Origin: Phycisphaeraceae bacterium
GTDB lineage: Bacteria; Planctomycetota; Phycisphaerae; Phycisphaerales; Phycisphaeraceae
NCBI GenBank assembly: GCA_029260715.1
Contig: JAJDCS010000034.1
Location: forward strand, 62,001-126,000
DNA: 64,000 nt
Direction: 5' to 3'
Of the stretch, positions 3,186 through 13,306 are shown piece after piece; the first letter of the stretch is position 1; every line of letters starts with the position of its first letter. The notes under the pieces were generated by a model that saw only the letters and a program-made list of their open reading frames with translations, was not told the DNA's origin and ran no database searches. A program made the position numbers and the translations under genes.

Positions 3186-3212
3186 AATAGTATACCATAT
3201 GCTTTGACTATT
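3186..3212. promoter_or_regulatory. Candidate metal-repressor operator
   Basis: A perfect AATAGT / ACTATT inverted repeat with 15 bases between the arms overlaps the -35 box of the transporter promoter, in the gap between the divergent repressor and transporter genes. The AT-rich two-arm layout suits a DtxR-type dimer. Assignment is by position and symmetry only. Confidence 0.4.
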
Positions 3213-3231
3213 CAAAATAACAATGTATAAT
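3204..3231 (+). promoter_or_regulatory. Promoter of the metal ABC transporter operon
   Basis: TTGACT (3204-3209), a 16-base spacer, then TATAAT (3226-3231) is close to the sigma-70 consensus. It lies in the most AT-rich stretch of the area, about 140 bases upstream of the binding-protein ATG. Transcription would start near 3238. Confidence 0.65.
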
Positions 3232-3369
3232 TAATCAAATTTCAAGCGGGGCGGCGGGGGCTCATGCCAAGCGGTGTCTCTCAATCAGATTCCCACCACG
3301 CGCCACGCCCATCAGGATACGGGCTCATCTCCGGATACCCCCCAACACACTAAAAAAGGACACCATCCG

Positions 3370-4491
3370 ATGACAAACACACTAAGAGTCTCTAACCAAC
3401 CGGGCACCGCACACCACGCCCCGTCCCGCCGCGCGCCAAGCGCAACCGCACAGCAAACCCCAACGCCCCGCGCGCCCACTTGGCTCGGGGCGCTGCGTGC
3501 ATTACTCAACCGCGCCGCCCAGCCCATCACCGCCGCCGCGGTCGCCATCACCATCGCCGCCGCCACCCCGCAACACGCCCGCGCCGACGGGCCCGCTGAA
3601 TACCCCTACAGCGTCGTCGCCACAACCGGCATGGTCGCCGACATCGTCAAGCAAGTCGTCGGCGACAAGGCAAACGTCCAAGCACTAATGGGCCAAGGCG
3701 TCGACCCACACCTATACAAACCCACACGCGGAGACGTGGCCGCCATCTTGCAAGCAGACGTCGTCTTCTACAGCGGCCTCATGCTCGAAGGACGAATGAC
3801 GGACACCTTCGTCAAAGCCGCCAGACGCGGAAAACCCGTCTACCCCGTTACCGAACTCGTCGACGAGTCCTTCCTGCTGGAGCCCAAGGGCTTCGCCGGG
3901 CACTGGGACCCGCACGTCTGGATGGACGTCCAAGCCTGGAGCCGCTGCGTGCAGGCCGTCGCCGTCGCCGTCGCCCAGTTCGACCCCAGCCACGCGGAAC
4001 ATTACCAAGCCAACGCCGCCGCCTACCGCCGGCAACTCGAAACGCTCGACGCATACGCCAAGCGAGCCATCGCCTCCATCCCACAAGAACAACGCGTCCT
4101 CGTCACCGCACACGACGCGTTCAACTACTTCGCACGCGCCTACAACATCCAGGTCCTGGGCATCCAAGGCATTTCCACCGAGTCCGAAGCCGGCCTGGCC
4201 GACATCCGGAAACTCGTTGACTTCATCGTGCAAACAAAGGTCAAAGCCGTCTTCGTTGAGAGCAGCGTCTCAGACAAAAACGTCAAAGCCCTCATCGAAG
4301 GCGCCAAGCACAGCGAACACAACGTCACCATCGGCGGCGAGCTATTCTCCGACGCCATGGGCCCCGCCGATTCCTACGAGGGAACCTACATCGGCATGAT
4401 CGACCACAACGTCACCACCATCACCCGCGCCCTAGGCGGCGAAGCACCTCCGCAAGGCATGCAAGGCAAACTCAAGGCCAACCACCCATGA
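3370..4491 (+). CDS. Metal ABC transporter substrate-binding protein (TroA/ZnuA/MntA type)
   Basis: 373 residues, cluster A-I solute-binding family for Mn, Zn or Fe. The ATG at 3370 has a GGA-type ribosome site; an upstream GTG at 3274 would only add an unusual leader. The N-terminus is long (about 50 residues) before a hydrophobic export segment (about 52-68) ending near QHARAD. Mature motifs: [13 protein letters not shown] (His114), DPHVWMD (His182), [23 protein letters not shown] and a C-terminal GELFSDAMG. These supply the His/His/Glu/Asp metal site of the family. No His-rich loop is seen, which argues mildly against a zinc-specific ZnuA. The stop overlaps the ATPase start as ATGA. Confidence 0.92.
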
Positions 4492-5342
4492 AAAACGCCC
4501 CAGCCGCTGAACAACCAAACCCCACGCCCGCCGGCGCCACCCCCGTCCAACCCGCCACGGGCCACGAGCACCCACCAGACTCGCCACTGTCGATACACGA
4601 CATGACCGTCGCCTACCAGCGAAAGCCCGTCCTCTGGGACGTCGACCTGGACATACCCGAGGGCAAGCTCATCGGCATCGTAGGCCCAAACGGTGCCGGG
4701 AAAAGCACGCTCATCAAAGCATGCCTCGACCTCATCCCAAAAGCATCAGGGCTCGTCAGCGTCTACGGCAAGCCATACCGACGCCAGCGAAAACTCGTCG
4801 GCTATGTCCCACAACGTGAAAGCGTCGACTGGGACTTCCCCGTCAGCGCACTGGACGTCGTCACCATGGGCAGATACGGAAAAATCGGCTGGTGCATGCC
4901 CGTCACACGCGCACACAAACAAGCCGCCATGACCGCCCTCGACCGCGTCGGCATCGCCGACCTCGCCTCACGCCAGATCAGCCAACTCTCAGGCGGACAA
5001 CAGCAACGCGTTTTCCTCGCCCGCGCCCTGGCCCAAGACGCCCGGCTCTACTTCATGGACGAACCCTTCGCCGCCGTCGACGCCGCCACCGAAAAAGCCA
5101 TCGTCGCCATCCTCCAACAGCTAAAAACCTCCGGGAAAACCGCCCTCGTCGTACACCACGACCTACACACCGTCCCCGAATACTTCGACTGGGTCATCTT
5201 CCTAAACATGCGCGTCGTCGCCTTCGGCCCAACACGCGAGGTGTTCACCCAAGAAAACCTCCACAAAACCTATGGCGGAAAGCTCACACTGCTCGACCAA
5301 GCCGCCCAAGCACTCGTCATCGCCGAGCGGGGCGGCTCATGA
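4488..5342 (+). CDS. Metal ABC transporter ATP-binding protein
   Basis: 284 residues. Walker [10 protein letters not shown] is at about 66-74, followed by a Q-loop region ([13 protein letters not shown]), signature LSGGQQQR, Walker B LYFMDEPF and a switch His in VVHHDLH. The [13 protein letters not shown] segment is typical of the Mn/Zn/Fe importer ATPases. About 35 Pro/Ala-rich residues precede the domain. It overlaps the genes on both sides by ATGA, indicating translational coupling. The 18 bases CAAGGCCAACCACCCATG ending in its start codon are identical to those ending in the start of the second permease. Confidence 0.93.
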
Positions 5343-6823
5343 AAAAAGCACACGCAATAAACAGAAGGGGGGGGGCACACCGCTTGGGCGCCTGCGCCCT
5401 CGCCGCCGCAGCCCTCTTCACCGCCCCCACACCCGCCTGGGCCCGCACCACGCAATCCATCACCGACACACGCGTCGCCTGGCCAACACTCAGCGACCTC
5501 ATCAGCGTCATTACCCTCCAAGGCTACAACACACGCCTCGTCGTGCTCAGCACCGCAATGCTAGGCTTAGCCGCCGGCGTCATCGGATCGTTCCTCCTAC
5601 TACGCAAACGCTCACTCATGGGCGACGTACTCAGCCACGCAACCCTGCCCGGCATCGCCGCCGCCTTTATGGTCATGGTCGCTTGGGGTGGGGGGGGTAA
5701 GTCCCTGCCCGGCCTGCTCGCCGGCGCCACCGTTTTCGCCCTGCTTGGCGTCGGCTGCGTACAACTCATGGACCGACACACCCGACTCAAAGACGACACC
5801 GCCATGGGCATCGTCCTAAGCGTCTACTTCGGCCTGGGCATCGCGCTCATGGGCATCGTCCAGAGCATGCCGGGCGGAAACAAAGCCGGGCTAGAGTCCT
5901 TCATCTACGGCAAAACCGCCTCAATGGTCTTCAACGACTTCGTCTTAATCGCCGGCGTCGCCTGCGCGTGCTCCGCCGTCTGCCTCACATTCTTCAAAGA
6001 GTTCAAGCTCCTGTGCTTCGACGACGGCTTCGCCCAGAGCCAGGGGTGGCCCGTACACACCCTCGACCTACTCATGCTCATCCTCGTCACCTGCGTCACG
6101 GTCATCGGCCTACAAGCCGTGGGTTTGATACTCGTCATCGCGCTACTCATCACACCCCCCGCCGCCGCACGGTTCTGGACCGAAGACCTCCGAAAGCTCA
6201 TGGCCGTCTCCGCGGTGGTGGGGGCCCTGAGCGGGTGGCTCGGCGCCTCCGTCAGCGCGCTGGTACCCAGAATGCCCGCCGGCGCCATCATCGTCATCGT
6301 CGCCGCAGCGCTGTTCGTCTTGAGCATGGTCTTCGGCACCGCCCGCGGCGTGCTCGTCCGCGCCCGGCGGCGCCGCCGCCTAGACCGCCGTATCGCCAGG
6401 CAGCACCTCCTACGCGCCATGTTCGAGTTAAACGAGCAAGCCCCCGCATCGCACACCGGCCAAACAACCACGCAACGCGACGCCAGCGTCACGTTCCGCC
6501 AACTCCTCGCCGCCCGATCCTGGAACACCCGCGCACTCAAACGCCTATTAAACCGCGCCCGCCGCGCCGAATTAATCCAACCCACCCCCGCCGGCGCATA
6601 CACGCTCACCGAACAAGGCGCCGCAGAAGCAGCGCGCCACGTCCGCAACCACCGACTCTGGGAGATCTACCTCATCACACGCGCCGACATCGCCCCCAAC
6701 CACGTCGACCGCGACGCCGACGAAGTCGAGCACGTCCTGGGCACCGACATGGTCGCCCAACTCGAGCAACTCGTGAAATTACCACTACCCAAACGCGCCG
6801 TGCCCGCAAGCCCACACGGATAA
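5339..6823 (+). CDS. Metal ABC transporter permease with DtxR-like C-terminal domain (first copy)
   Basis: 494 residues. Residues about 50-335 are an ABC-3 family permease with eight or nine hydrophobic segments and the family motif [16 protein letters not shown] basic linker ([11 protein letters not shown], about 341-351) leads to a cytosolic domain. Residues about 383-435 look like a winged helix ending in [15 protein letters not shown]. Residues about 437-470 carry NHRLWEIYL and DADEVEHVL, matching the His and E-H metal ligands of the neighbouring repressor. A hydrophobic N-terminal segment ends at AWA (about 36). The start ATG overlaps the ATPase stop. The architecture parallels chlamydial YtgCR, in which the repressor domain is released by proteolysis. 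Whether that occurs here is unknown; metal-sensing gating is the alternative. Confidence 0.88.
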
Positions 6824-6842
6824 ACACCAAGGCCAACCACCC

Positions 6843-8174
6843 ATGCAGTGGACACACGAAATAGATACCTGGATCGTCGTCATAGGCGTGCTGTGCTCAC
6901 TCTCCTGCGCACTGCTGGGCAACTTCCTGGTCCTGCAACGCATGAGCATGATGGGCGACGCCATCAGCCACGCCGTCCTGCCAGGCCTAGCCGTCGCCTT
7001 CCTGATCACCGGCAGCCGCTCCAGCGTCGCCATGCTCACAGGCGCCGTCATCGCGGGACTGCTCACCACCCTATTCACGCAATGGGTCCAAGGCTTCGGC
7101 AAGGTCGACCGCGGCGCCGCCATGGGCGTCGTCTTCACGTCCCTCTTCGCCATCGGCCTGGTGCTCATCGTACAAGCCGCCGACAGCATCGACCTCGACC
7201 CAAACTGCGTGCTATACGGCGCCATCGAGCTCGCACCGCTCGACGACACGCTATTCTTCGGTAGCCGCGTCCCCCGCGCCGTCCCGCTCCTGGCCCTCGT
7301 CTTGCTGGTGAACGCAGCCGTGGTCGCGCTCTTCTACAAAGAGCTCAAAATCAGCTCCTTCGACCCCGCCCTCGCCACCGCGCTTGGCATCAACGCCAAC
7401 GCCATGCACTACCTGCTCATGGTCCTCGTCGCCGTCACCGCCGTCGCCTCGTTTGAGATGATCGGGAGCATCCTCGTCATCGCCATGCTCATCGTCCCCG
7501 CCGCCGCCGCCCACCTGCTCACAGACCGCCTGGGCGCCATGATCGCCGTCAGCCTCGTCTTCGGCGCCGCAAGCGCCGCACTGGGCCACCTCGCCGCCAT
7601 CACCGTCCCGCCCCTGCTCTTCACAGGCGTACAAGACACCACCACCTCCGGCATGATGGTCGTCGTCGCCGGCGTCCTCTTCGGCACCACCGTCCTGCTC
7701 GCCCCCCGCCACGGCGCTATAAGCAAAGCCTGGCACCGCTGGGCGTTCAGCCTACGCATGCTCAAAGAAGACGCGCTGGGGCTGCTCTACCGCTTCGAAG
7801 AACTGCCCTCACCCCCCGGGCCCGTGTCCATCGTCACCATGCTCTGCCACGCCAAACGCACAGGCCCGCTCCTGGCACGCCTGGCCGTCATAAGACTACT
7901 CGCCGAGGGGAAACTACAGCGGCAACGCAACGGGTACACACTCACCGCCGCCGGGCGCGACCAAGCCGCGGGCCTCATCCGCGCACACAGGCTCTGGGAA
8001 AGCTACCTCGTCGACCGCATCGCGCTGCCCGCCGACCACGTACACCGCACCGCCGAAGGCCTGGAGCACATCACCACCGAATCACTAGCCCAAGCCCTCT
8101 ACGAACGAACCGGGCACCCCGCCACAGACCCGCACGGCAAGGCAATCCCCAACCCAGATCACAAACAAAACTAA
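6843..8174 (+). CDS. Metal ABC transporter permease with DtxR-like C-terminal domain (second copy)
   Basis: 443 residues. Residues 1-285 are an ABC-3 permease (RMSMMGDAISHAVLPG motif; helices to about 283). The cytosolic tail from about 300 contains a helix-turn-helix-like stretch ending in YTLTAAGRDQAAGLI, then AHRLWESYLVDR, HRTAEGLEHITTE and GHPATDPHGKAIP. The last three blocks are very like the free repressor of this locus (EDAEVLEH; GHPTLDPHGDPIP), so this tail keeps more of the sensor domain than the first permease does. It follows the first permease after 19 bases and closes the operon. Two paralogous permeases normally form a heterodimer in this transporter class. Confidence 0.88.
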   Translation: MQWTHEIDTWIVVIGVLCSLSCALLGNFLVLQRMSMMGDAISHAVLPGLAVAFLITGSRSSVAMLTGAVIAGLLTTLFTQWVQGFGKVDRGAAMGVVFTSLFAIGLVLIVQAADSIDLDPNCVLYGAIELAPLDDTLFFGSRVPRAVPLLALVLLVNAAVVALFYKELKISSFDPALATALGINANAMHYLLMVLVAVTAVASFEMIGSILVIAMLIVPAAAAHLLTDRLGAMIAVSLVFGAASAALGHLAAITVPPLLFTGVQDTTTSGMMVVVAGVLFGTTVLLAPRHGAISKAWHRWAFSLRMLKEDALGLLYRFEELPSPPGPVSIVTMLCHAKRTGPLLARLAVIRLLAEGKLQRQRNGYTLTAAGRDQAAGLIRAHRLWESYLVDRIALPADHVHRTAEGLEHITTESLAQALYERTGHPATDPHGKAIPNPDHKQN

Positions 8175-8339: not shown

Positions 8340-11300
8340 CTAAACCCGCTCAATAAACACCGCGTCCGCCATCACCGTGTTATTCGCGTCGTTCGATAGC
8401 TCAACCACAAGCGTGCTGCCCGTGATCGTGACCGTGTCGATGTCTTCCCAGTTGCTGTTTGACACCGTCCGGTCGTTCGGCGCTTGCGTCATATCAATAT
8501 CAACCGTGGTCAGCGGCGCCGCGCCGTCCTTGATGGTGAACGGCGCATCCGTCGCGCCGTTGCTCGCAGGCGGGTAAGTCGTTGACACCCGGTACTGACC
8601 CGCCGCCAGCCCCGTAAACGTCCACGTCGCCACCCGGCTGCCGTTGCCTTTCGCCGTCGGGCGGTAGCTGCCCCCGCGACCCGTGTGCGTCGCCGTGTTC
8701 CACGCGCCAACCACACCAAAACCCGCGTCGGTGTTGTCGATAATATATTGCGAGCCCACCGTACCCGACACCGTGAAGTTAAAAGTACCTTCGTCCGCGT
8801 CGTTGTTCGTGAAAGACACCGTCCCGCTTGGCGTGCCCGGCGCCGAACCGTCGAGCTGCACCACAAACGTCGTCGACGCGCCCAACGCCAAGCTCGTCGA
8901 ACCAAAATTCGACGACAAGCTAAACCCGCTGGGCAAGCTGAACGACCCGCTGCTAAGCGTCAAAGTGCTGCCGCCCACGTTGATCACCGTAAACGCCCGC
9001 GTCACCGGCGTGCCCAGGCCCGTCGAACCGAAGGCAACGCTCCCCGAACCGTCCGCCAACACCGCACCGTCGGCACGCAGCACCTCGATCTCCGCGCCCG
9101 CCGGGATGTCACCGACCCGCTCGATCATCACCGCGTCGGCCATCACCGCGTTGTTCGCGTCGTTCGATAGCTCAACCACCAGCGAAGTGCCCGTGATCGT
9201 AACCGTCGTGATGTCCTCCCAGTTGCTGTTCGACACCGTCCGGTCATTGGGCGCCTGGGTCATGTCCATATCCACCGTCGTGATCGTGGTCGCACCGTCC
9301 TTAATCGTGAACGGCGCGTCCGTCGCGCCGTTGCCCGCAGCCGGCCACGTGCCCGACACCAGGTACTGACCCGCCGACAGGTTGTTGAACGTCCACGTCG
9401 CCACCCGGCTGCCGTCGCCTTTGGCCGTCGGGCGGAAGCTGCCCCCGCGACCCGTGTGAGTCGCCGTGTTCCACGCGCCCACCACCCCAAAACCCGCGTC
9501 GGAGTTGTCGATAATAAGCTGAGCGCCGACCGTCCCCGACACCGTAAAGTTAAAAGTACCCTCGTCCGCGTCGTTGTTCGTGAAAGACACCGTCCCGCTG
9601 GGCGACCCCGGCGAAGACCCGTCGAGTTGCACCTCAAACGTCGTCGACTCGCCCAACGCCAGGCTCGTCGAACCAAAGTTCGACGACAAGCTAAACCCGC
9701 TGGGCAAGCTGAACGACCCGCTGCTAAGCGTCAGCGAGCTGCCGCCCACGTTCGTCACGGTAAACGTCTGTGTCACCGGCGTCGCCAAGTCCGTTGACCC
9801 GAAGTCCACGCTCCCCGACCCGTCCGCCACCACCGTGCCGTCCGCCAGCATCACCTCGATCTCAGAACCCGCCGGGATGTCACCGATCCGCTCGATCATC
9901 ACCGCGTCAGCCATCACCGTGTTGTTCGCGTCGTTGGAAAGCTCAACCACCATCGTGGTCCCGGTCAGCGTCACCGTGGCGATGTCCTCCCAGTTGCTAT
10001 CGGACACCGTCCGGTCGTCGGGCGCCTGGGTCATGTCCATATCCACCGTCGTGATCGTGGCCGCACCGTCCTTAATCGTAAACGGCGCGTCCGTCGCCCC
10101 GTTGCCAGCCGGCGGGTAAGTCGTCGACACCCGGTACTGACCAGCCGTCAGGTCGCTGAACGTCCACGTCGCAACACGGCTGCCGTCGCCCTTGGCCGTC
10201 GGGCGGAAGCCGCCGTCGTGGCCCGTGTGCGTCGCCGTGCCCCACACGCCGACCACACCAAAGCCCGCGTCCGTGTTGTCCACGATGAGCTGAGCGCTCA
10301 CCACGCCCGACACCGTGAAGTTAAAAGTACCTTCGTCCGCGTCGTTGTTCGTGAAAGACACCGTCCCGCTGGGCGACCCCGGCGAAGAACCGTCGAGTTG
10401 CACCACAAACGTCGTCGACTCACCCAACGCCAAGCTCGTCGAACCAAAGTTCGACGACAAGCTAAACCCGCTGGGCAAGCTGAACGACCCGCTGCTAAGC
10501 GTCAGCGAGCTGCTACCCACGTTCGTCACGGTAAAACTCTGTGTCACCGGCGTCGCCAGGTCGGTCGAGCCGAAGTCCACGCTGCCCGACCCGTCCGCCA
10601 CGTCGGTGCCGTCAGCCAGAGATACCTCGATCTCAGAACCCGCCGGGATATCGCCGATCCGCTCAATCATCACCGCGTCAGCCATCACCGCGTTGTTCGC
10701 ATCATTCGAAAGCTCAACCACCATCGTGGTCCCGGTCAGCGTGACCGTGGCGATATCCTCCCAGTTGCTATCCGACACCACCCGGTCGTCGGGCGTCTGC
10801 GTCATGTTCATATCAACGGTGACAATCGCGGTCGCACCGTCCTTGATCGTAAACGGCGCGTCCGTCGCCCCGTTACTCGCAGGCGGGTAAGTCGTCGACA
10901 CCCGGTACTGACCCGCCGTCAGGTCGCTGAACGTCCACGTCGCAACACGGCTGCCGTTGCCCTTGGCTGTCGGGCGGTAGCTACCCCCCCGGCCCGTGTG
11001 CGTCGCCGTGTTCCAAGTACCCACCACCCCGAAGCCCGCGTCCGCGTTGTCCACAATCACCTGAGCGGTCACCGTGCCCGATATCGTGAAGTTGTACGTG
11101 CTCTCGTTCGCGTCATTGTTGGTAAACGACAGCGTCCCGCTGGGCGTGCCCGCTGAGGACGCGTCCAACTGAACCGTGAACGTGGTCGACGCGTTCGCCG
11201 CCAGCGTCGTCGACCCGAAGTTCGACGACAAGCTAAAACCCGACGGCACGCTGAAAGACCCGCTGTCGAGCGTCAGCTCGCTAGCGCCCGTGTTCGTCAC

Positions 11301-12905
11301 GGTAAACGTGTGGGTGACCGCCTCACCCACGATCGTCGACCCGAAGTCCACGCTCCCCGACCCGTCCGCCACTTCCACACCCTGATCATCCGTAACCTTT
11401 ATCTCCGGCGCGTCGGGTGCCATCGCCAATATCCCCTCAGCAAGGGCCACCACGTCGATCCTGCTGAAATCCAACCCCGTGTTCGTCACGTTGTCGTTTT
11501 CGTCGTCACCGTCGTTGACGGTCACACCCGTGTCGTCCAGAAGCGTTCGAAACTCCGCCAGCGTCAGCCGCCTGCCGATCTCCTGCACCGCCAACTGCTG
11601 CGCCAGCACCGCCACCCCCGCCACGTGCGGAGACGCCTGGCTCGTGCCGTGCATCGTCACAAGGCCCGCCCCGGGGCCCGCGCCGGTAATCGGTGCGCCC
11701 GGCGCGAACGTATCCACGAGCGTCGCGTGACGCTGCGAAAACGGCGTGATGTGGTCGGCCCCGGTCGTGAACGCCTTCGCGCCGCTGGCATACGTCCACG
11801 TGCCGCCCACGTTCGAGTCGTACACCGCGCCGACCGTCAGCGTGTTCGCGTCCGCAGCCGGGTAGCTCACACCCGGAACGCTGCTGTGTGTGAAAAAATC
11901 ATTCCCCGCAGCCGCCACCACCAACACGTCCATCGCCGCCAGCGCCGCGAACTCGTCCGACACCCCGTACAGCGCCTTGGTCGTGCCGAAGTTGCCGTCG
12001 TCCCCCAGCGAAAGATTCACACTCGCGATGTTGTAAGTCACCGCGTTGTTCACCACCCACTGCAACGCGCTCTCCAGCCACCCGAAGCTACCGCTCCCGT
12101 TATCGCCCAGCACCTTCAGGTGGATAATGTCCGCGCCCGGGGCCATGCCCGTGTACGTCGAGTCGGAAGACGCCACAATGCTCGAAACGTTCGACCCATG
12201 TCCCTGCACGTCCCCGGCCCCGCCGCTGCCCGTAAAATCTTGCGTGTAAACGATCCGGTCCGAAACGCCGTCGCTGTTCGCGTCCGCGCCGAAAAACGGG
12301 TCGTCCAAGTCGATGCCCGTGTCCATGATCACCGTCGCGAACCCGCTGCCGTCGATCCCCGTAAATCGGTTGTCAACCCTGAAGTCGTCGATGCGGATAA
12401 GCGGCCCCGACACATTGCTCTGAATGCCGATCTCGCCCGCCGGGATGACCATATCCGTCGGCGCGTAGATTGGGATATCGGAATTGGTGGTCGTCACCTG
12501 CTCCGCCAGCAGCGTCGCCAGTTCGGTGTTGTTAAACCCCACTGCCCCGTCGCTGATACCGACGAACCGGAACCCGCCGCCGCCGTCGGACGCCGACTCA
12601 CCGCCCGCCCCGCCCCGCGCCACCTTCAACTGGCGTGGCTGCGCAACCGCGGGCGAAGACGAACCCGCTACACCCTGTTCAACAAAAACACCCACCGCCG
12701 CGCCGCCCAACACCGCGTCAAACGGGTCCGTGTCAAGAAGCGGCGCACCGCTGAGCAGCGTCCGCTGCTCCAAAGCCTCCAACCCTTCATGGGTGTACAC
12801 ACCCCCACGCCGCGCGCCACAAGCCAACCCCCCGCGAGTCCGCCGATTGACGCTGCGCGTATGCCTGGCTCGGCGGAAACCGAACCGCTTAAACCACTGG
12901 ATCAT
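8340..12905 (-). CDS. Secreted subtilisin-family protease with four choice-of-anchor-D / golvesin-like repeat units
   Basis: About 1,521 residues from the ATG at 12905, which has AAGGAGTGGAGG just upstream; the frame stays open to 13079 but lacks such a site. The basic N-terminus ends in LEALEQRTLLSG (about 42-53), a LEPR-XLL-type export signal. The S8 catalytic triad is seen as MDTGIDL (Asp near 194), QGHGSNVSS (His near 235) and HGTSQASPH (Ser near 421). The C-terminal two thirds hold four consecutive units of about 740-770 bp (roughly 11390-8343). Each unit has an Ig-like choice-of-anchor-D part (VTNTGASELTL; SFTNNDANE) and a golvesin-like part (DNADAGFGVVG; MADAVMIERI). It is likely an exported or surface protease with adhesive tandem domains. 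Confidence 0.88.
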   Translation of the reverse strand: MIQWFKRFGFRRARHTRSVNRRTRGGLACGARRGGVYTHEGLEALEQRTLLSGAPLLDTDPFDAVLGGAAVGVFVEQGVAGSSSPAVAQPRQLKVARGGAGGESASDGGGGFRFVGISDGAVGFNNTELATLLAEQVTTTNSDIPIYAPTDMVIPAGEIGIQSNVSGPLIRIDDFRVDNRFTGIDGSGFATVIMDTGIDLDDPFFGADANSDGVSDRIVYTQDFTGSGGAGDVQGHGSNVSSIVASSDSTYTGMAPGADIIHLKVLGDNGSGSFGWLESALQWVVNNAVTYNIASVNLSLGDDGNFGTTKALYGVSDEFAALAAMDVLVVAAAGNDFFTHSSVPGVSYPAADANTLTVGAVYDSNVGGTWTYASGAKAFTTGADHITPFSQRHATLVDTFAPGAPITGAGPGAGLVTMHGTSQASPHVAGVAVLAQQLAVQEIGRRLTLAEFRTLLDDTGVTVNDGDDENDNVTNTGLDFSRIDVVALAEGILAMAPDAPEIKVTDDQGVEVADGSGSVDFGSTIVGEAVTHTFTVTNTGASELTLDSGSFSVPSGFSLSSNFGSTTLAANASTTFTVQLDASSAGTPSGTLSFTNNDANESTYNFTISGTVTAQVIVDNADAGFGVVGTWNTATHTGRGGSYRPTAKGNGSRVATWTFSDLTAGQYRVSTTYPPASNGATDAPFTIKDGATAIVTVDMNMTQTPDDRVVSDSNWEDIATVTLTGTTMVVELSNDANNAVMADAVMIERIGDIPAGSEIEVSLADGTDVADGSGSVDFGSTDLATPVTQSFTVTNVGSSSLTLSSGSFSLPSGFSLSSNFGSTSLALGESTTFVVQLDGSSPGSPSGTVSFTNNDADEGTFNFTVSGVVSAQLIVDNTDAGFGVVGVWGTATHTGHDGGFRPTAKGDGSRVATWTFSDLTAGQYRVSTTYPPAGNGATDAPFTIKDGAATITTVDMDMTQAPDDRTVSDSNWEDIATVTLTGTTMVVELSNDANNTVMADAVMIERIGDIPAGSEIEVMLADGTVVADGSGSVDFGSTDLATPVTQTFTVTNVGGSSLTLSSGSFSLPSGFSLSSNFGSTSLALGESTTFEVQLDGSSPGSPSGTVSFTNNDADEGTFNFTVSGTVGAQLIIDNSDAGFGVVGAWNTATHTGRGGSFRPTAKGDGSRVATWTFNNLSAGQYLVSGTWPAAGNGATDAPFTIKDGATTITTVDMDMTQAPNDRTVSNSNWEDITTVTITGTSLVVELSNDANNAVMADAVMIERVGDIPAGAEIEVLRADGAVLADGSGSVAFGSTGLGTPVTRAFTVINVGGSTLTLSSGSFSLPSGFSLSSNFGSTSLALGASTTFVVQLDGSAPGTPSGTVSFTNNDADEGTFNFTVSGTVGSQYIIDNTDAGFGVVGAWNTATHTGRGGSYRPTAKGNGSRVATWTFTGLAAGQYRVSTTYPPASNGATDAPFTIKDGAAPLTTVDIDMTQAPNDRTVSNSNWEDIDTVTITGSTLVVELSNDANNTVMADAVFIERV

Positions 12906-12982
12906 CTGCCTCCACTCCTTAGGTACGCCCCTCAACCCGGACATGCCCGCAAGACCGCGGGGACGGGTTATCGAACTCTGCT

Positions 12983-13000
12983 TGCCCGCCGAAGCGGGCA
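12983..13000 (-). other. Stem-loop in the 5' leader of the subtilase gene
   Basis: TGCCCGC and GCGGGCA form a 7-pair stem with a TTCG tetraloop on the minus strand, about 80 bases before the subtilase start. It may affect mRNA stability. Nothing else is recognised in the 12906-13306 gap apart from the ribosome site. Confidence 0.5.
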
Positions 13001-13306
13001 GACCCCCAAACCCTGGATCGCCTCGAAACACAATCCGCCCAGCGGAATTTCGGCACGTTGCGTAAGCCGATGTGGGCAATCAAGCCCGGCTAGGTGGGAT
13101 TAGCGCAATACGGGTGGCACAACCGCGCACAGCGTTAAATACCGCAAAGTTGATCAATGAAACCAACCGCCGGAAGCGGGGCGGGTTAGCCCCACGCAAA
13201 ACCCGTGATGGCCCGCTCTCTCCCCACCCCCACGCGCCCGCGAAGAACACCCGTCCGGTAAGCTCCAACCCCCCGGCAATCGCGGAACCCCGCCTCCCCC
13301 GCGCCG

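Follow-up and report, generated by a model that had tools for sequence, protein, structure and literature searches.

Like the locus described here, the ytgABCRD operon of Chlamydia trachomatis is an ABCD metal-import operon in which, in the sections of a review that treat it (PMC5599777), an ABC-3/TroC-like permease is fused at its C terminus to a DtxR-type domain that contains metal residues; YtgC is the one fused permease of that system, and the DNA-binding repressor is cleaved from the YtgCR fusion. The same sections report permease-repressor fusions orthologous to YtgCR in 11 phyla, and a fusion of this kind is therefore not new in itself. We analyzed a 64,000-nucleotide stretch of DNA from a Phycisphaeraceae bacterium (GCA_029260715.1, contig JAJDCS010000034.1, positions 62,001 to 126,000 of the forward strand; hereafter the window), in which positions 5339-8174 hold precisely the two open reading frames (ORFs) of permease 1 (P0001) and permease 2 (P0002) of an ABC-3 metal importer. 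Both permeases end in a DtxR-type two-domain tail (Table 1), and the parallel with YtgCR drawn in an earlier reading of this DNA (the original prediction) holds in that a permease-DtxR fusion lies in a metal-import operon. Compared with YtgCR by description only, this operon differs in having both permeases fused, a relaxed helix-turn-helix (HTH), and a repressor that is encoded separately. In the open-licence PMC literature, we found no paper describing a double fusion or a tail that has lost DNA reading, and nothing on the architecture of permease-DtxR fusions outside Chlamydia beyond the Chlamydia papers themselves. Three features appear to be new: the doubling of the tail, the decay of the DNA reader next to a retained metal site, and a DtxR-FeoA relative that is anchored in the membrane and encoded beside FeoB.

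The DtxR-family domain PF02742 (Fe_dep_repr_C) was detected at 45.9 bits in permease 1 and 80.2 bits in permease 2, both above the Pfam cut-off of 27 bits, so that each of these single ORFs joins an ABC-3 permease to a DtxR-type metal domain. When the tails alone were compared with PDB sequences, the best DtxR-family chain was 5zr4 for tail 2 (E = 4.5e-14) and SloR 5cvi for tail 1 (E = 6.7e-07). For the N-terminal, DNA-binding DtxR domain (PF01325), no match at E ≤ 1 was reported in either P0001 or P0002, whereas the free repressor of the locus (P0003) did match, an indication that the divergence of the tails lies in their DNA-binding half. Permease 1 contains the motifs HRLWEIYL and DEVEH, and permease 2 contains HRLWESYL, EGLEH, and GHPATDPHGKAIP. 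These conform to the HRLWExxL and E-x-x-E-H or D-x-x-E-H patterns from which the domains had been recognized, and the GHPxxDPHGxxIP pattern of permease 2 does recur in the free repressor. The claim that HRLWExxL is also shared with that repressor did not stand, as the repressor reads HRLIELFL. The tryptophan preceding E80 was present in 96 of 96 permease tails from this and related loci and in 1 of 31 free repressors, and thus marks the tails rather than being common to tails and repressors.

AlphaFold2 models of the two permeases, built on 10-row alignments, had mean predicted local distance difference test (pLDDT) values of 78.7 (permease 1) and 80.7 (permease 2). Both consist of an ABC-3 membrane domain, a continuous exit helix (residues 338-367 in permease 1 and 292-320 in permease 2, unbroken), and then two short helices, a wing of two strands, and three further helices. 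In Foldseek comparisons, the membrane parts matched PsaC 7kyp with TM-scores (TMt) of 0.88 and 0.85, respectively. The permease 2 tail clearly matched the DtxR-type chain 8pvt_B (E = 4.2e-05, TMt 0.78), and the permease 1 tail gave weaker matches to 5cvi_A (E = 2.5e-03) and 2it0_C (E = 5.9e-03, TMt 0.73). The predicted models thus contain the winged helix and the metal/dimerization fold of the DtxR family in both tails, and together with the Pfam and PDB matches they confirm the DtxR-like domains that the original prediction had placed on both permeases. Like the DtxR, MntR, SloR, and IdeR repressors, the tails have a two-domain fold with core metal residues; unlike them, they are attached to a transporter, have a diverged DNA-reading helix, carry the tryptophan of HRLWE, and, in permease-1 and permease-2 tails, lack the third FeoA/SH3 domain.

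We searched for PF02742 and PF00950 in the genome of origin and 40 relatives, fetched the loci, and scored their ORFs; because loci were picked mainly by PF02742 matches, untailed permeases are under-sampled. Counts of linker, ligand, and HTH features refer to tails longer than 120 amino acids (aa), a set of 96 made up of 44 permease-1, 39 permease-2, and 13 single-permease tails. Near-copies (L118/L155 and several loci from one genus) are each counted in it, and the tails of L129-L134 and L151-L153 that contain only a winged HTH (wHTH) lie outside it. So does permease 2 of L135 in genome G121 (L135:3302-8437, minus strand), which appears frame-broken, with the tail continuing in another frame (L135_3358_3927 and L135_2778_3584). 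The tails were aligned to SloR, from which the residue numbering is taken, and the aligned positions are, on the precedent of the DtxR family, presumably the metal ligands. All five core positions, H76, E80, E/D99, E102, and H103, were intact in 79 of the 96 tails (40/44 permease-1, 30/39 permease-2, and 9/13 single-permease), including both tails of the window. The D7 position was aspartate in 33 of 39 permease-2 tails, and among the 44 permease-1 tails it was histidine in 26, asparagine in 12, aspartate in 3, arginine in 2, and glutamine in 1. At the C123 position, 35 of 39 permease-2 tails had aspartate.

Conservation of the DNA-reading part followed a different course. Mean conservation of the HTH and the metal domain was 0.59 and 0.63 in 31 free repressors (those scoring above 120 bits against a profile built from such repressors, a selection that could inflate their conservation), compared with 0.37 and 0.55 in permease-1, 0.28 and 0.51 in permease-2, and 0.44 and 0.61 in single-permease tails. 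Within the same loci, pairwise HTH identity was 0.455 for repressors versus 0.238 for permease 1 (210 pairs, 21 loci) and 0.470 versus 0.183 for permease 2 (91 pairs, 14 loci), and the corresponding metal-domain identities were 0.543 versus 0.475 and 0.522 versus 0.400. The HTH deficit was greater in the permease in 179 of 210 permease-1 pairs and 79 of 91 permease-2 pairs, and so not in every pair. As a check on the selection bias, we used 47 non-permease rows that included short and divergent repressors, two of which (L148_5269 and L135_2778) may be permease-tail pieces, and the HTH gap persisted: with metal-domain identity matched at 0.35-0.50, HTH identity was 0.361 for these rows and 0.198, 0.171, and 0.166 for permease-1, permease-2, and single-permease tails, giving HTH/metal ratios of 0.89 versus 0.49, 0.42, and 0.40. 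An HTH stretch of 22 residues or fewer, which is too short for two helices plus a turn, occurred in 13 of 39 permease-2 tails and 0 of 31 repressors; the wHTH of permease-1 tails is changed yet of full length. The DNA-reading HTH expected of a YtgCR-type fusion is therefore relaxed in permease-1, permease-2, and single-permease tails alike. These comparisons suggest that the tails have kept their metal domain while the DNA-reading part has largely decayed. In a tree of 126 rows and 132 retained columns, calculated without L155 and L125-L127 and with a program warning that many forks were unresolvable, the free repressors formed one side of a branch with support of 100/96, separate from the tails. 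Since the free repressors branch apart in this way, a recent capture of the local repressor as the origin of the tails was rejected.

The connection between membrane domain and tail is constant in length. In 96/96 tails (permease-1, permease-2, and single-permease), the glycine ending the last membrane helix lies precisely 19 residues before the D7-equivalent position, and in both AlphaFold2 models a helix begins directly after this glycine. The linker residues themselves are variable, one quarter to one third of them being basic; excepting the invariant glycine, no single residue at positions -18 to -2 had a share above 70% in permease-1, 69% in permease-2, or 92% (arginine) in single-permease tails. 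The original prediction had suggested looking for a conserved protease site in the basic linker, and no conserved protease-site motif was seen there across the tails. The constant length would favor rigid coupling, as a flexible, cleaved linker could vary in length and a mechanical one could not.

A separate repressor is encoded in the same locus, as the original prediction had stated (Table 1). The recognition helix of the free repressors is strongly conserved, and the VTPGT of the repressors was not found in the compared permease tails. A palindrome search of width 18 over 18 intergenic regions beside this type of repressor returned one motif, approximately AnTTTGAyTAnTCAAAnT, with a score of 469.8 against 163-185 in three shuffled sets (40 restarts for the real set and 15 for the shuffled sets). 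Among the 18 regions, L128 gave a different site and L084 a weak match; L081, whose genes overlap, was excluded from the search. Four of the regions (L097, L077, L069, and L068) precede untailed Mnt or DtxR-FeoA genes, implying that the motif follows the repressor and not the tails. In the window, the palindrome TTTGACTATTCAAA is probably the operator of the free repressor, to which the repressor would bind; the exact pattern TTTGAYTANTCAAA has its single occurrence in the 3.32-Mb genome of origin at this site. One-mismatch copies at L160 (G000:C3:12737-12750) and L161 (G000:C43:132732-132745) are possible further targets of the repressor.

Among 20 genomes with permeases of the permease-1/permease-2 type, 16 had both tails, two had only the permease-2 tail (G014 and G035), one had only the permease-1 tail (G020), and one had neither (G026). 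The double tails of G023 lie on separate contigs, and permease 2 of G024 is split over two contig ends. Random absence of the tails from related operons, which would have counted against the original prediction, was thus not seen, and with both tails in 16 of 20 pairs and the metal residues kept, we rejected random or decaying tails. A non-permease PF02742 protein was also present in 16 of the 16 double-tailed genomes. Untailed pairs in G002 (contig C102, L033), L096, and L097 are of another, MntCD-like type. A hand count over a sample of 149 genomes from the phylum, taking matches that start by position 20 and reach position 390 of 424, gave 39 genomes with one or more full-length permease-tail proteins, of which 23 had two. 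In G063, G124, and G141 (L136-L141), the genes for permease 1 and permease 2 lie far from each other and both permeases are tailed, and four named relatives (two Kiritimatiellia metagenome-assembled genomes [MAGs], one Phycisphaerales MAG, and one "bacterium" MAG) are all double-tailed. Loci L142-L147 encode the single-permease type, with tails of 226-255 aa. Together with L125-L127, L129-L134, and L151-L153, these exceptions indicate that the tails are mostly kept but trimmed in differing ways.

We consider it about 60% probable that the tails are a DtxR module recruited as an intracellular metal sensor that controls the importer itself. Of the two functions offered in the original prediction, metal-gated transport is the one to which these analyses point. 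In this model, two unlike permeases each end in a DtxR-type module that would have kept metal binding and dimerization while losing most of its specific DNA reading. At high cytoplasmic metal, both tails would bind metal and pair next to the ATPases. The position of the D7-type ligand (H356 in permease 1 and D310 in permease 2) lies on a helix continuous with the last membrane helix, so that metal binding is proposed to pull on the membrane domain, and this pull may hold the transporter in a non-cycling state as a feedback brake similar to the transinhibition of MetNI and ModBC. Transcription would be run separately, by the free repressor at its palindrome. We infer metal binding by the tails, tail-tail pairing, the brake itself, and its action by inhibition rather than activation. 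In the part of PMC10710835 concerned with transinhibition, MetNI and ModBC have a fused cytoplasmic domain that senses the imported substrate and stops cycling, as is proposed here for the permease tails; their regulatory domain is of unrelated fold and sits on the ATPase (MetN, ModC), whereas here a fused metal-type domain is present on the permeases, with substrate binding predicted from sequence.

Several observations weigh against a metal-sensing brake. At least one core position is missing in 9 of 39 permease-2 and 4 of 13 single-permease tails, and the D7 equivalent is asparagine, arginine, or glutamine in 15 of 44 permease-1 tails. The tails are dispensable, as one is missing in 3 of 20 pairs and both are missing in 1 of 20. 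In L125-L127 both tails are present and the core metal residues are lost. The L129-L134 loci have a full permease-1 tail and a permease-2 tail of 88-101 aa that is wHTH-like and without a metal domain, reversing the usual trend, and L151-L153 have a similar wHTH-like permease-2 tail and no permease-1 tail. In the permease 1 model, confidence is low (block means of 56 and 67) for the alpha-5 region, where the metal residues lie. Finally, the recognition-helix segment is basic, with a mean net charge of +3.05 in permease-1, +1.87 in permease-2, and +3.15 in single-permease tails compared with +1.10 in repressors, so that the tails might still bind nucleic acid.

Some of these observations are also accommodated if the tails are assembly or dimerization modules that join the permeases or tune their stability, with any bound metal being structural. 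PF02742 is a dimerization domain present on both partners, the fixed helical linker fits assembly, and L125-L127 retain tails without intact metal residues. We regard this alternative as unlikely, given that a metal-independent clamp would not need the core metal residues kept in most tails and that PsaC-type permeases and the untailed pairs in relatives assemble without tails.

Next in order, and also improbable in our assessment, is a YtgCR-like role in which one or both tails repress transcription, either after proteolytic release or while still membrane-bound, and the free repressor adds a second layer of control. The domain order is the same as in Chlamydia YtgCR, whose DtxR part is cleaved off and represses according to the relevant passages of PMC5599777 and PMC7755916, and permease-1 tails keep the wHTH length, an arginine-rich recognition helix, and a recurring R-S-W motif. 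Against such a role, the HTH is relaxed relative to the metal domain in each tail class and shortened in a third of permease-2 tails. The locus also encodes a free repressor, of a type whose recognition helix is strongly conserved, and has the conserved palindrome beside that gene; the fixed-length linker has no conserved cleavage-like motif. Competition for the operator would also predict a repressor-like recognition helix, and VTPGT is missing from the compared tails. Because of the relaxed HTH, the separate repressor, and the fixed linker, the tethered or cleaved double repressor was rejected as the leading explanation; the double membrane-tethered repressor of the original prediction is thus not supported, as the free repressor and its conserved, probable operator can account for transcription.

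We give little credence to metallochaperone-like tails that would accept the ion at the channel exit and pass it on: metal residues do lie near the cytoplasmic membrane face, and the single-permease form can carry a weak FeoA match (L145, below cut-off), but the DtxR fold is, to our knowledge, a sensor fold in all characterized cases. Least probable is that the changed HTH binds a new partner (ATPase, RNA, or membrane lipid) through a contact switched by metal, since, despite a permease-1 wHTH that retains its length and gains charge and a HADIAPSHVDRDAD that is nearly invariant in permease-1 tails beyond the metal residues, no such partner is known, and the idea merges with the metal-sensing brake if the partner is the ATPase.

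The same DtxR module was also found apart from permeases. Ten long DtxR proteins (L065-L069, L072, L077, L083, L156, and L157) formed one tree group with support of 100/93, and those scanned with Pfam (L068, L083, and L077) contained PF02742 and FeoA. Three of the ten (L077, L156, and L157) start with one membrane helix, PxxG, and the 19-residue spacing, and the other seven do not. FeoA is a known partner of FeoB, and the adjoining large ORF was FeoB by Pfam in 6 of 6 loci tested (L065, L067, L068, L069, L072, and L077), with the DtxR-FeoA and FeoB genes of L077 overlapping by 4 bp. Like the permease tails, the membrane-anchored DtxR-FeoA-FeoA proteins combine PxxG, 19 residues, and the same DtxR module; unlike the tails, they have no permease attached, two FeoA domains, and FeoB as a neighbor. 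The occurrence of this module on ABC-3 permeases and by FeoB places the same sensor beside two unrelated importers. A wider scenario, which we put forward tentatively and hold to be somewhat less probable than not, is that the doubling of an ancestral permease-DtxR fusion gave rise, in Planctomycetota-like bacteria and Kiritimatiellia, to an obligate pair, a two-input metal brake acting through rigid helices, and that the helix-plus-sensor unit was reused without a permease, with two FeoA domains, beside FeoB. In a two-input brake, the predicted metal sites would be unlike, with H/H/E/D/D/E/H in permease 1 and D/H/E/H/E/E/H/D in permease 2.

The remaining genes of the operon are consistent with a metal importer. 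The divergent repressor gene on the minus strand is followed on the plus strand by genes for the binding protein, the ABC ATPase, permease 1, and permease 2, so that one operon holds the ABC-3 permeases, ATPase, and ZnuA/TroA-type binding protein characteristic of ABC-3 systems of the Tro/Psa/Mnt type. The nearest solved relative of the binding protein was TroA of Treponema (1toa, E = 7.2e-76), and the alignment has GVDPHLY, DPHVW, TAHDAF, and FSDAMG in common, which we take to be the stretches with the TroA metal ligands. The ATPase had a single ABC_tran match in Pfam (residues 51-195). None of the NCBIfam cut-offs was reached by the binding protein, ATPase, or repressor. The locus resembles TroABCD/TroR of Treponema and PsaBCA/MntABC in its TroA-close binding protein, PsaC-modelled permeases, and dedicated DtxR-type repressor. 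Unlike the permeases described here, the solved PsaC chains that were matched (258-290 residues) have no DtxR tails, and TroC and TroD are presumably untailed as well. Judged from its genes, the operon is predicted to encode a TroA/PsaBC-like importer for a divalent transition metal, which may be Mn, Fe, or Zn.

Table 1. Features of the importer locus, by window position, and related proteins beside FeoB, by locus
Feature	Position	Strand	Details
Free DtxR/MntR-type repressor, 248 aa	2381-3127	-	PF01325 winged helix, PF02742 metal domain, and PF04023 FeoA
Palindrome TTTGACTATTCAAA, probable operator of the free repressor	3203-3216		Between two divergent genes; predicted by motif search and genome/window scans
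ZnuA/TroA-type metal-binding protein	3274-4491	+	Start is GTG 3274 or in-frame ATG 3370
ABC ATPase, 284 aa	4488-5342	+	4-bp overlap with each neighbor
Permease 1 (P0001), 494 aa	5339-6823	+	ABC-3 residues 67-332; DtxR-like tail residues 338-494
Permease 1 linker helix, residues 338-356	6350-6406	+	19 residues after G337; last is D7-equivalent H356
Permease 1 tail, divergent winged-helix part, residues 357-423	6407-6607	+	
Permease 1 tail, Fe_dep_repr_C, residues 424-481	6608-6781	+	Predicted metal residues H438, E442, D461, E464, H465
Permease 2 (P0002), 443 aa	6843-8174	+	ABC-3 residues 10-280; DtxR-like tail residues 292-443
Permease 2 linker helix, residues 292-310	7716-7772	+	19 residues after G291; last is D310
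Permease 2 tail, divergent winged-helix part, residues 311-367	7773-7943	+	
Permease 2 tail, Fe_dep_repr_C, residues 368-437	7944-8153	+	Predicted metal residues H382, E386, H401, E405, E408, H409, D429
Membrane-anchored DtxR-FeoA-FeoA proteins beside FeoB	L077:4601-5689; L156:3743-5431 (-); L157:4175-5305		

Downstream of the operon, a 1579-aa ORF on the minus strand (window 8340-13079) has, on reading its translation by eye, a subtilase-like region (GTS-ASPHVAGVA) followed by four similar repeated blocks, making it a candidate secreted protease or adhesin-like protein.

If the tails do act as a brake, they would provide protein-level feedback on a transition-metal ABC importer by a metallo-repressor fold, which would then stand midway between a switch for genes and a valve for transport. 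If the two-input form of the brake is also true, DtxR domains would be general feedback modules of metal importers whose DNA-reading role was lost in this branch. Natural lineages that lack a tail, a metal domain, or the metal residues themselves offer ready test material, with L125-L127 as a natural negative control. For YtgCR-like fusions, these findings advise caution, in that a permease with a DtxR tail does not necessarily carry a repressor.

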